Origin: Lachnospiraceae bacterium
Lineage (GTDB): Bacteria; Bacillota; Clostridia; Lachnospirales; Lachnospiraceae
Assembly (NCBI GenBank): GCA_017469935.1
Contig: JAFUFL010000016.1
Location: 1 to 64,000 of the forward strand
DNA length: 64,000 nucleotides
Direction of reading: 5' to 3'
The notes under the pieces were generated by a model. The model worked only from the letters and a program-made list of their open reading frames with translations. It was not told the origin of the DNA and did not search any database. Made by a program: the position numbers and the translations under genes. This document shows, in pieces, positions 47,707 to 50,313 of the stretch. Numbering within the stretch: the stretch's first letter is position 1; each line of letters opens with the position of its first letter.

Positions 47707-47793
47707 TCAGGTGATCGCCTGCATTCCCATGCTCAGCATCGCAGCGATTCCAATCACCCAGTAAATAATCTTATATATTCTTGCTACTGCCAT
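47707..47793 (-). CDS. 28-residue hydrophobic small protein
   Basis: ATG at 47793 follows GGAGGAG and encodes MAVARIYKIIYWVIGIAAML and a short tail: one membrane helix. It begins 3 nt after the stop of the 35-residue ORF. The size and helix resemble small membrane toxins or regulators. Real translation is likely from the strong ribosome site. Confidence 0.55.
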   Translation of the reverse strand: MAVARIYKIIYWVIGIAAMLSMGMQAIT

Positions 47794-47796
47794 CGC

Positions 47797-47904
47797 TCAC
47801 TCCTCCTCTGCCATGTACTCTTCATACTCGGCCTCACTGGCAAACAAAATGTAGCGGCCGTTAACCAAACCCATGTAACCGTTTCCATTAAGATATCCCT
47901 TCAT
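47797..47904 (-). CDS. 35-residue small protein
   Basis: ATG at 47904 follows AAGGAGG. The sequence MKGYLNGNGYMGLVNGRYIL continues into an acidic tail (EYEEYMAEEE). The pattern GLVNGRYILFASEAEYEEYM recalls very small proteins common in Clostridial mobile elements; no function is known to me. It forms a two-gene unit with the 28-residue protein. Confidence 0.6.
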   Translation of the reverse strand: MKGYLNGNGYMGLVNGRYILFASEAEYEEYMAEEE

Positions 47905-47972: not shown

Positions 47973-48016
47973 TCGAACAGGTGTACATTTGTTTGTACAG
48001 GTCGAACGTTTGTTTC
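47973..48016. promoter_or_regulatory. Possible LexA/DinR-like boxes
   Basis: CGAACGTTTGTTTC (48003-48016) differs from the Gram-positive SOS box CGAACRNRYGTTYC at one position. A weaker half-site, CGAACAGGTGTACA, is at 47973-47986. They lie between the divergent small-ORF unit and the double-glycine gene. The -10 of the latter is TATAAT at 48087. Confidence 0.4.
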
Positions 48017-48035
48017 CGAATTCTTTCGGGATCCG

Positions 48036-48052
48036 GCGGGCTGAATAATTAC
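48036..48052. repeat. Solo end of ATTATTCAGC repeat family
   Basis: GGCGGGCTGAATAATTA is the reverse-complement form of the repeat ends seen at 28605, 56104 and 62774. Confidence 0.5.
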
Positions 48053-48131
48053 GAAATAACCATGGAATTCCGTCCACGCAAAAGTATATAATAATATAAA
48101 GAGCACACACCTTTTAGAAAGGAGAATTAAA

Positions 48132-48428
48132 ATGAGCGAAATGATGGATAAAATGAATGCAGAAGAGCTTAACGAAGTTACCGGCGGCGTTGGCAGACAG
48201 GAGATTATCGTAAAAGCTATCACACCGATCTGGGTAAAGGTTACAGCATCCAGCCTTAACTGCAGATATACCCCCAACGGACCGATTGCCAAGACCTACG
48301 AGTACGGCCACAAGCTGAAAGTCGACGGAATCACTGATGATGGCAAGTGGTACAGACTGCTGATCAATGATCCTCGCGGCGGCACCTGCTATGCTTTCAT
48401 CTACAAAGAGTACACCAAGAAGATCTGA
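48132..48428 (+). CDS. Double-glycine leader protein with SH3-like core (copy 1)
   Basis: 98 residues. The leader MSEMMDKMNAEELNEVTGG ends in GG (18-19), the type cleaved by C39 peptidase ABC exporters. The 79-residue core resembles a bacterial SH3 domain: VTASSLNCRYTPNGPIAKTY, GHKLKVDG, GKWYRLLI, with two cysteines (44 and 86) that may form a disulfide. Paralogue at 50014 differs by seven substitutions and one inserted residue. GGAG precedes the ATG. No exporter or immunity gene is adjacent. SH3b folds often bind peptidoglycan, so a secreted wall-binding protein or bacteriocin-like role is plausible but unproven. Confidence 0.8.
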   Translation: MSEMMDKMNAEELNEVTGGVGRQEIIVKAITPIWVKVTASSLNCRYTPNGPIAKTYEYGHKLKVDGITDDGKWYRLLINDPRGGTCYAFIYKEYTKKI

Positions 48429-48498
48429 TCATGATTTCGGACTTGTTTATGAGTCTTCTGACATAAGCGCTTGATTGGCGCGCCAATAATGAGCATTA

Positions 48499-48535
48499 AA
48501 AGAGGGGCTGTCACATTGTGACAGCCCCTCTCAAG
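48499..48535 (-). terminator. Terminator of sigma factor gene
   Basis: GAGGGGCTGTCAC-ATT-GTGACAGCCCCTC perfect 13-bp stem followed on the minus strand by TTTTAAT. Confidence 0.8.
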
Positions 48536-48539
48536 TGAT

Positions 48540-49493
48540 TTACGCGAGATAATCGCGAAGGCTTCTGTGTTTGTGTACCTGGCGCATCAGGAGTTTTCTG
48601 AGCGCCTTGGCCTCGATCTGGCGAATTCTCTCGCGGGTGAGGCCGTAAATCTGTCCCAGTTCATCCAGGGTCTTTTCCCTGCCGTCGTCCAGCCCGAACC
48701 GAAGGCGCAGGATCGCCTCTTCGCGAACGGTAAGGCAGTCGAAGAGCCCGACAACGGATTCCCTCATGGAGGAGGCGACAGCCGCCGCCTCGGGTTCGGG
48801 GGAGCCCTCGTCACGGATGTAATCGCTCAGCTGGCTGTCCTGTTCTTCTCCGACAGGTGTGTCAAGGGAGACGGCATCCATGGAGTAATTCAGGAGCGTA
48901 TCAACCTGCTCGACGGGCATATCGAGCTTCTCGGCGATGTCTTCCGGAGTAACTTCCCTGCCGAGAGTCTGGGAGAGTTCCCGCATGGCGCGCCGGACTT
49001 TATTGATCCGCTCGCACTGATGAACCGGGATCCGGATGATTCGGGATTTATCGTTGATGGCGCGGGAAATCGCCTGTCTGATCCACCAGGTGGCGTAGGT
49101 GGAAAACTTGAACCCTTTCCTGTAATCAAATTTGTCGACCGCTTTCATAAGGCCGATGTTTCCTTCCTGAATCAGGTCCAGGAAGGAGTAGGTAGAGCGC
49201 CTGTATCTTTTGGCAATGTTTACAACAAGCCGGAGATTTGCCTGCGCAAGCTGCTCGCGGGCGTAAGTATCGCCGGCCTCGATGCGCTTCGCCAGTGCGA
49301 TCTCTTCCTCGGCGCTAAGAAGAGGGTAGGTGCTGATCTCTTTAAGGTAGAGCCGTACGGAATCGGAGACAGCGAGGTCTTCCGCGGTATAAAGAGCTTC
49401 ACTGTCCGTGTCGCAGTCAATACCATCAGTAATCTCGTCAAAATCGTCGTCGATTAACAGGGGGGATGTGGTTTTGATCTCTTCTGCAGACAT
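48540..49493 (-). CDS. Sigma-70 family RNA polymerase sigma factor (RpoD-like)
   Basis: 317 residues with sigma regions 1.2 (DSVRLYLKEISTYPLLSAEEE), 2 (LRLVVNIAKRY, DLIQEGNIGLMKAVDKFDY, FSTYATWWIRQAI), 3 and 4 (LRLRFGLDDG, YGLTRERIRQIE). Region 1.1 is absent, so it is a short RpoD-like or group 2 factor; the primary sigma factor is normally longer. ATG at 49493 follows AAAGGAG. It is flanked by the two double-glycine genes and by tRNA-Leu genes. Its regulon cannot be read from here. Confidence 0.92.
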   Translation of the reverse strand: MSAEEIKTTSPLLIDDDFDEITDGIDCDTDSEALYTAEDLAVSDSVRLYLKEISTYPLLSAEEEIALAKRIEAGDTYAREQLAQANLRLVVNIAKRYRRSTYSFLDLIQEGNIGLMKAVDKFDYRKGFKFSTYATWWIRQAISRAINDKSRIIRIPVHQCERINKVRRAMRELSQTLGREVTPEDIAEKLDMPVEQVDTLLNYSMDAVSLDTPVGEEQDSQLSDYIRDEGSPEPEAAAVASSMRESVVGLFDCLTVREEAILRLRFGLDDGREKTLDELGQIYGLTRERIRQIEAKALRKLLMRQVHKHRSLRDYLA

Positions 49494-49631
49494 ATAACTC
49501 CTTTCGAAAACAGTTGATGTGACATAAGACCGTATTAGAAATGCGGAGTGGAAACTGTCGGTGACAGCTTCTAAAAAAACAGACGAGGAAAAAACAATAA
49601 AATTACAAAAAAACATTGGGACGAGATACAA

Positions 49632-49671
49632 AAAGCCCGGATTCATTGAATGCTCAATGATTCCGGGCTTT
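49632..49671 (-). terminator. Terminator of tRNA-Leu pair
   Basis: 18-bp stem AAAGCCCGGAT(T)CATTGA with TCAATGATTCCGGGCTTT around ATGC, followed on the minus strand by TTGTATC and T-rich sequence. Confidence 0.85.
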
Positions 49672-49675
49672 ATGA

Positions 49676-49759
49676 TGCGGAAGATGGGACTTGAACCCAC
49701 ACGGTGTATCCACCACAAGATCCTTAGTCTTGCTCGTCTGCCAGTTCCGACACTTCCGC
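49676..49759 (-). tRNA. tRNA-Leu (AAG)
   Basis: Acceptor GCGGAAG/CTTCCGC, anticodon stem CAAGA/TCTTG with loop CTAAGGA (AAG), long variable arm, T arm with TTCAAGT. 84 nt, standard class II. Confidence 0.93.
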
Positions 49760-49785
49760 GTATTCCTGCAATGTGTTACAGAAGA

Positions 49786-49868
49786 TGCAGGAGATGGGAC
49801 TTGAACCCACACTATGTTGCCATAACAGGCACCTGAAGCCTGCGCGTCTGCCATTCCGCCACTCCTGC
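49786..49868 (-). tRNA. tRNA-Leu (CAG)
   Basis: Acceptor GCAGGAG/CTCCTGC, anticodon stem CAGGC/GCCTG with loop TTCAGGT (CAG), long variable arm, TTCAAGT in the T loop. 83 nt, standard class II. Confidence 0.93.
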
Positions 49869-50013
49869 GAACAGAGGATATTGTACCGAAAACGGGGGGA
49901 AATGTCAAATAAATTTTTTTGTGGAATTTTCGCCCGGCGGCTGTATATATATGTGTAAGGCAAAAAACAATGTTTTAACGGTCAGACAGACCCGCACAAA
50001 AAGGAGATAAAAA

Positions 50014-50313
50014 ATGAGCGATATGATGGAAAACAAGATGAATGCAGAGGAACTGGATCAGGTTACCGGCGGCGTAGGAAGACAGGAGATCTCGGTAAAA
50101 GCGATCACCCCGATCTGGGTAAAGGTCACGGCTTCGAGCCTGAACTGCAGATATACTCCCGACGGACCGATCGCCAAGACCTATGAGTACGGCCACAAGC
50201 TGAAAGTCGACGGCATCACCAGCGACGGCAAGTGGTACAGACTGCTGATCAACGATCCCCGCGGCGGCACCTGCTACGCATTCATTTACAAAGAATATAC
50301 CAAGAAGATCTGA
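50014..50313 (+). CDS. Double-glycine leader protein with SH3-like core (copy 2)
   Basis: 99 residues, leader MSDMMENKMNAEELDQVTGG, core almost identical to copy 1 (3 changes in 79 residues) with the same two cysteines. Synonymous differences are much more frequent than amino-acid changes, so the core seems to be under purifying selection. AAAAAGGAG precedes the ATG. TATATA lies upstream. It is separated from copy 1 by the sigma gene and two tRNA genes, all on the other strand. A terminator follows. Confidence 0.8.
   Translation: MSDMMENKMNAEELDQVTGGVGRQEISVKAITPIWVKVTASSLNCRYTPDGPIAKTYEYGHKLKVDGITSDGKWYRLLINDPRGGTCYAFIYKEYTKKI

Follow-up and report, generated by a model that had tools for sequence, protein, structure and literature searches.

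The 64,000-nucleotide stretch of DNA analysed here (the window: positions 1 to 64,000 of contig JAFUFL010000016.1, Lachnospiraceae bacterium, GenBank assembly GCA_017469935.1) contains two closely related genes on its forward strand, each encoding a small protein composed of a double-glycine (GG) leader and a core that we read as an SH3-type domain. The first open reading frame (ORF), located at 48132..48428, specifies the 98-residue protein P0001 with a leader of 19 residues (48132..48188) and a core of 79 residues (48189..48425), and the second, at 50014..50313, specifies the 99-residue protein P0002 with a leader of 20 residues (50014..50073) and a core of the same length (50074..50310), as described in an initial annotation, whose start at 47973 precedes the first gene by about 160 bases. 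An AAAGGAG ribosome-binding site precedes each of the two ORFs, as read from the sequence (GAAAGGAG at 48117..48124 and AAAGGAG at 50000..50006, both on the + strand). The two cores differ in three residues, with 24.5 differences at 53 synonymous sites and 5.5 at 184 nonsynonymous sites in a Nei-Gojobori comparison. Since the resulting ratio of nonsynonymous to synonymous substitution rates (dN/dS) is 0.042, both copies look constrained as proteins and under selection, which agrees with the initial annotation, where the excess of synonymous differences had been pointed out.

As also described there, the copies bracket a sigma-70 family factor (48540..49493, – strand), identified by its Pfam regions 1.2, 2, 3 and 4, and two tRNA-Leu genes on the same strand. 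We treat the sigma gene as context and do not count it as part of the proposed system. An inverted repeat with 15-base arms, noticed by eye at 48501..48531, where it separates copy 1 from the sigma gene that converges on it, is perhaps a transcription end common to both and is not reported by a terminator scan that requires a run of T. A promoter scan returned 3 sites, compared to 2.5 in shuffled sequence. Upstream of copy 1, two tiny adjoining reading frames of 35 and 28 residues are found on the – strand (47707-47904), the first of which is preceded by an AAGGAGG site.

The leaders of the proteins show a strongly conserved pattern. In an alignment of 32 family members, all contain the Gly-Gly pair, a leucine at position –7 and L, I, M or V at position –12, and 31 carry a valine at position –4, which is replaced by alanine in the remaining one (V, L and M at –4, –7 and –12 in copy 1). 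The combination of Gly-Gly with hydrophobic residues at –4, –7 and –12, which constitutes the leader rule for C39 domains and peptidase-containing ATP-binding cassette transporters (PCATs), is thus found in 31 to 32 of the 32 members at each position, and it is these positions that LahT, ComA and PCAT1 recognise (PMC10885120, PMC6959990). No hydrophobic stretch of the Sec type was found at the N-terminus when reading the family alignment, and when P0001 and P0002 were compared with Pfam and NCBIfam, neither an NHLP nor a Nif11 family was matched.

The proposal that the core resembles an SH3 domain is supported by profile comparisons. A profile of 32 cores aligned with a profile of ten SH3_3 domains from the same genome over about 55 residues with a score of 30.8, the maximum in 40 column shuffles being 15.4. 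In a search of PDB sequences with the family profile, the top matches were an amidase chain (9kz1, E 0.0012), a phage lysin (5d74, E 0.0083) and an SH3b protein (8b2h, E 0.08), and a search with a single protein gave a chance match only. Eight of the 32 members are matched by the SH3 model PF08239 at E≤1, with 1.3e-5 as the lowest E-value. A comparison with one prophage lysozyme tail carried no information (P 0.11). No lytic or pore-forming family was matched by the core in the Pfam and profile scans, in which matches were confined to SH3-type profiles. Of the two cysteines of the core, Cys 44 is kept in 31 and Cys 86 in 30 of the 32 members. A disulfide between them is possible but would not be required throughout, because one member (L042) has retained the first cysteine and lost the second.

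The pair is not a self-contained system within the window. A search for additional copies in the genome (3.55 Mb in 111 contigs) revealed a more extended set, with two further copies in tandem on contig C16, which show 75 and 71% identity, and a single one on C78 with 60%, bringing the family to five, and a sixth, divergent gene on C99, in which a GG leader is followed by another SH3-like domain that is also matched by PF08239 (E 0.011, below cut-off). When the whole genome was searched with the leader model TIGR01847 at E-values up to 10, matches were found at six places, which coincide with the five copies and the C99 gene, and three of them reach the curated cut-off. At least six GG-SH3 genes are thus scattered over this genome. 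In the following, we refer to proteins of the window type as family 1 and to GG-SH3 proteins resembling the C99 protein as family 2. The family-2 profile is similar to SH3 domains (38.9, shuffle maximum 16.4 of 100), and its proteins do not contain the cysteine pair described above. The core profiles of the two families are only marginally similar to each other (score 21.8, shuffle maximum 21.6 of 100), and they may have originated from two independent captures of SH3 domains. A family-2 profile that includes the leader matches one of the C16 copies at E 5e-6, and genes of both families are found in tandem in two genomes (G054 and G024).

The distribution of family 1 was examined in searches with P0001. 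Among 61 genomes of the same genus, 52 matches were found in 19, with a copy number that differs among species, and a search of genome contigs identified 19 loci, all in metagenome-assembled genomes of Lachnospiraceae. Out of 299 Lachnospiraceae genomes, nearly all from different genera, only that of the window contains full-length members, and the weak matches in 15 others, with E-values between 1e-6 and 1e-3, come from frames of at least 281 residues. The cores of the family are 57–93% identical to the first sequence of its alignment. The arrangement of two copies bracketing the sigma gene is seen in the window and at one other locus (L009), where the protein is 100% identical. In another genome (G045), two family matches are located about 2 kb apart, and the loci L010-L027 contain one copy each, several of them ending near the gene. 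A separate observation concerns family 2, for which a genome from another Lachnospiraceae genus (G141) contains seven matches with E-values below 1e-24 on contigs C13, C25, C36, C76, C90 and C94, some at contig ends. An origin from phages or plasmids was considered and set aside, as P0001 has no match in the phage and plasmid collections and none of 45 pattern matches of the family alignment in viral contigs could be confirmed as a relative.

The absence of a C39 exporter from the window noted initially extends to its entire contig, on which PF03412 detects no C39 domain. In the whole genome, the same model identifies three such domains, and C39-type peptidases, whose presence elsewhere in the genome had been left for a later search, are therefore found in this organism. 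Two of them belong to peptidase/ABC systems of the NHLM type on contigs C32 and C68. On C32, the first ABC subunit (ABC1) scores 913 bits against TIGR03796 (cut-off 853) and the second (ABC2) 712 bits against TIGR03797 (cut-off 709), and they are accompanied by a short HlyD-like partner, in which TIGR03794 is matched over 52 of its 421 positions. On C68, ABC1 reaches 898 bits and ABC2 682 bits, the latter just under the cut-off, so this system fits NHLM only in part; its contig breaks off about 190 bases ahead of ABC1, which hides the upstream side. In both ABC1 proteins, the Q-x5-C and H-x15-D spacing is kept, as read from their sequences, which corresponds to the catalytic spacing of PCAT1 (as quoted in PMC12184118). 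The third C39 gene, on C89, was set aside, as it encodes a protein of 152 residues among genes that on reading appear prophage-like. The genome also contains one LanC-like gene on C88 (L204:4381-5787, G000), which is surrounded by genes resembling those of sulfur amino-acid metabolism, with no precursor recognised nearby.

We then compared the distribution of family and transporter within the genus. As ABC transporters resemble one another, TIGR03796 gives matches at E≤0.001 in every one of the 61 genus genomes and the 14 controls. We therefore counted only matches over the cut-off, which are found in 31 of the 61 genomes. Such a transporter is present in 18 of the 19 genomes holding the family compared to 13 of the 42 others (Fisher one-sided P 2e-6, not corrected for kinship). 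The exception (G007) contains a TIGR03796 fragment at a contig end, covering positions 1-520, and all 19 family-holding genomes hence carry the transporter, 18 of them over the cut-off and one as a fragment. For family 2, the equivalent numbers are 25 of 28 holders versus 6 of 33 others, with some longer SH3 proteins counted as holders, and we attach less importance to this comparison.

A linkage between genes for putative cargo and exporter is visible in sister species. We examined the surroundings of all 39 ABC1 loci over the cut-off and of some weaker ones, many of these stretches ending at contig ends. At eight of the 39 loci (L119-L126), a family-2 GG-SH3 gene adjoins the genes for HlyD, ABC1 and ABC2 in the same direction. 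In two further cases, it is located on the other strand at a distance of about 0.9 kb from ABC2 (L128) or about 8 kb from the transporter (L127), and at L159 and L160, where the transporter scores under the cut-off, weaker GG-SH3 profile matches of 50 and 42 bits are found beside the transporter. Apart from these loci and those with the other cargo described below, none of the cargo profiles of this analysis matched next to the transporter, which includes C32 and C68. No modification enzymes were recognised when reading the gene lists of L119-L126, radical SAM proteins not having been searched for.

Other small proteins with GG leaders occur at transporter loci. In L120-L124, the SH3 gene is preceded by one for a protein that combines a GG leader with four cysteines at its C-terminal end (Cys4) and on reading resembles a zinc ribbon, and at L132 a similar protein is the only GG cargo seen (examples beside the transporter are L120:5185-5493, L121:518-859 and L132:10254-10550). 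Faint matches to this protein are located further off at L139 and L143, and no Pfam family over the cut-off was found for those of L120 and L132. At two loci, a GG leader is combined with a PepSY-type domain encoded directly behind ABC2 (L152:5041-5282 and L158:9738-10004; PF03413 E 5.7e-14 for the latter, the only example run), which would bring the types of small domain using this route to three. At L133, we find long-leader peptides that on reading are of the Nif11 type. As a further observation, 23 of the 54 fetched stretches, 51 of which had been taken for the transporter, contain a gene for a STAS-domain protein resembling RsbV (e.g. L028:8469-8765), identified by a sequence pattern with Pfam run on single examples, six of these stretches also contain an RsbW-like gene or fusion, and genes for SpoIIE phosphatases are found alongside near transporter loci. 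The presence of STAS and RsbW-like genes near many of the transporters suggests that the export system would be under partner-switch control.

The same kind of domain is also found in larger proteins. The family-2 profile at E≤1e-4 matches in 14 of the 299 Lachnospiraceae genomes, including that of the window. Among the matches are GG-SH3 proteins (L172, L173 and L178) and, at L195, L174, L176, L177 and L188, longer proteins (about 300-450 residues), in which a hydrophobic, signal-like N-terminus is followed by three to five copies of the SH3 domain. Similarly, ten of the fifteen core relatives from outside the genus were inspected and found in long proteins, most of which resemble wall hydrolases, as labelled by reading. 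With GG-SH3 proteins on one side and SH3 repeats or domains in long, extracellular-looking proteins on the other, there appear to be two routes by which the domain leaves the cell.

We consider it probable, at about two chances in three, that the genes of the window encode secreted, unmodified single SH3-type domains, which bind to the wall or surface and are exported after a cut behind Gly-Gly by a transporter of the NHLM type. The precursor would be made in the cytoplasm and its 19- or 20-residue leader helix would dock on the C39 domain of the ABC transporter encoded on C32, on C68 or on both. Cleavage after Gly-Gly by the C39 domain would be followed by the exit of the 79-residue core from the cell, on whose exterior it may bind to the wall or surface. 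Such binding is what SH3 domains do in secreted bacterial proteins, and we infer an equivalent role for the window proteins and their pairing with one or both of the transporters. They would be members of a small, dispersed cargo set of at least six genes rather than classical bacteriocins.

Several observations weigh against this interpretation. The Pfam scan of P0001 and P0002 contains no SH3 match, PF08239 never exceeds its curated cut-off in the family (best 25.7 versus 27 bits), and the remaining 13 of the PDB matches listed are unrelated or eukaryotic SH3 proteins with E-values of at least 0.2. The leader models are weak for each protein (TIGR01847 E 0.12-2.6; PF10439 E 0.2-0.5, below cut-off), and TIGR01847 also matches in six of the 14 control genomes, in one over the cut-off. 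Regarding the exporter, no GG cargo was seen beside the transporters on C32 or C68, family-1 genes are found on none of the 39 transporter stretches, some of which are short, and the transporter is present in 13 of the 42 genomes without the family, hence it must have other uses. A broader proposal, which we regard as somewhat short of an even chance, is that NHLM transporters in these Lachnospiraceae would provide a general route for unmodified small folded domains (SH3, Cys4 zinc-ribbon-like and PepSY, all behind a similar GG leader) that dress the surface and do not serve as antibiotics, and would in part be switched by STAS, RsbW and SpoIIE proteins.

A narrower form of the proposed wall- or surface-binding role, and one that we hold decidedly tentatively, is that they serve the producer as adhesins or as abundant structural proteins of its coat, comparable to MAM. 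This 135-residue GG-leader protein has been proposed as PCAT cargo and exceeds all other envelope proteins of its Faecalibacterium host in abundance (PMC12184118), and tandem SH3-only proteins with a hydrophobic N-terminus are indeed found in other Lachnospiraceae genera. However, since MAM is predicted to be helical and SH3 is unmentioned in the accessible part of its paper (PMC12184118), the likeness is an analogy of route only. Unlikely, in our view, is a function as bacteriocins, whose exported core would harm neighbouring bacteria. Although the GG leader resembles bacteriocin leader models, staying below cut-off, NHLM transporters carry the name of bacteriocin exporters and the copy number differs between species, the cores are conserved and not hypervariable, the core matches SH3-type profiles instead of lytic or pore-forming families, and no immunity-like partner was recognised beside the copies in this genome in gene lists that were read and not formally compared.

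Two further readings concern the fate of the leader and of the core. We find it very unlikely that the leader stays uncut and the proteins remain inside, with the GG helix docking on the C39 domain in a regulatory role. The STAS, RsbW-like and SpoIIE-phosphatase genes near many transporter loci indicate that the system is regulated somehow, but binding alone would not require the Gly-Gly pair found throughout the alignment, and the relatives of the core are part of long proteins that look extracellular. The least probable of the readings is a modification of the core after translation, for example at its cysteines, which would make it a ribosomally synthesized and post-translationally modified peptide. 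It would fit the definition of NHLM transporters from clusters of modified peptides (PMC2887384) and the presence of a LanC-like gene in the genome. Conversely, the latter is stand-alone (468-472 residues), unlinked and located among unrelated genes, the genome contains no YcaO match, the reading of the L119-L126 gene lists, with no search aimed at radical SAM enzymes, revealed no modification enzyme, and family 2 lacks the same cysteine pair.

By annotation, transporters of the NHLM type are bacteriocin exporters, and genome mining is directed at modified peptides in their neighbourhood. If plain domains were also exported, a large number of small GG proteins, and of exporters with no obvious peptide, would belong to a protein secretion route, which, if it exists, would be missed by predictors of Sec signal peptides. 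It also raises the question of whether a peptidase/ABC transporter can pass a domain of the size of SH3, folded or unfolded.

The proposed system shares features with several known ones. With NHLM/NHLP systems (TIGR03794, TIGR03796, TIGR03797; PMC2887384), it has in common two ABC subunits that exceed the cut-offs or come close to them, the HlyD-like partner in front (C32) and a GG-type leader on the proposed cargo. It differs in its leaders of about 18-24 residues, which are neither NHLP nor Nif11, in the short HlyD protein of C32 and in a cargo consisting of a single protein domain, for which reading of the surroundings revealed no modification enzyme. In PCAT1 and its substrate CtA, we find a GG-leader cargo of about 90 residues, leucines at –7 and –12 and the same catalytic spacing, whereas CtA is described as unstructured inside the transporter cavity, in an account from which SH3 is absent (PMC6959990). 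Class II bacteriocins (PF10439, TIGR01847, TIGR03949) show the same leader pattern, but the core is here longer, SH3-like and conserved, and their typical context is missing, with no C39 gene on the contig and no immunity partner recognised by reading. The bacterial SH3 domains (PF08239) of wall enzymes and lysins are similar in profile over about 55 residues, but accompany an enzyme or repeat in a long protein, whereas here a single domain follows a GG leader. Such a domain is an unusual cargo for this leader, as the initial annotation had remarked, and a search of the open literature, within the words used and with several of the returned lists incomplete, found no published description of GG-leader SH3 proteins. 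The nearest functional precedent would be MAM with its PCAT, comparable in route, which likewise is a protein-size proposed cargo with GG leader from a gut Firmicute but is reported to be exclusive to Faecalibacterium and helical by prediction, in contrast to the SH3-type domain and the several dispersed copies found here (PMC12184118). With MAM already published as GG cargo of protein size, the initial suggestion of an undescribed secreted system applies in part, the proposed novelty being the SH3-type cargo on the known GG-leader/PCAT export route.

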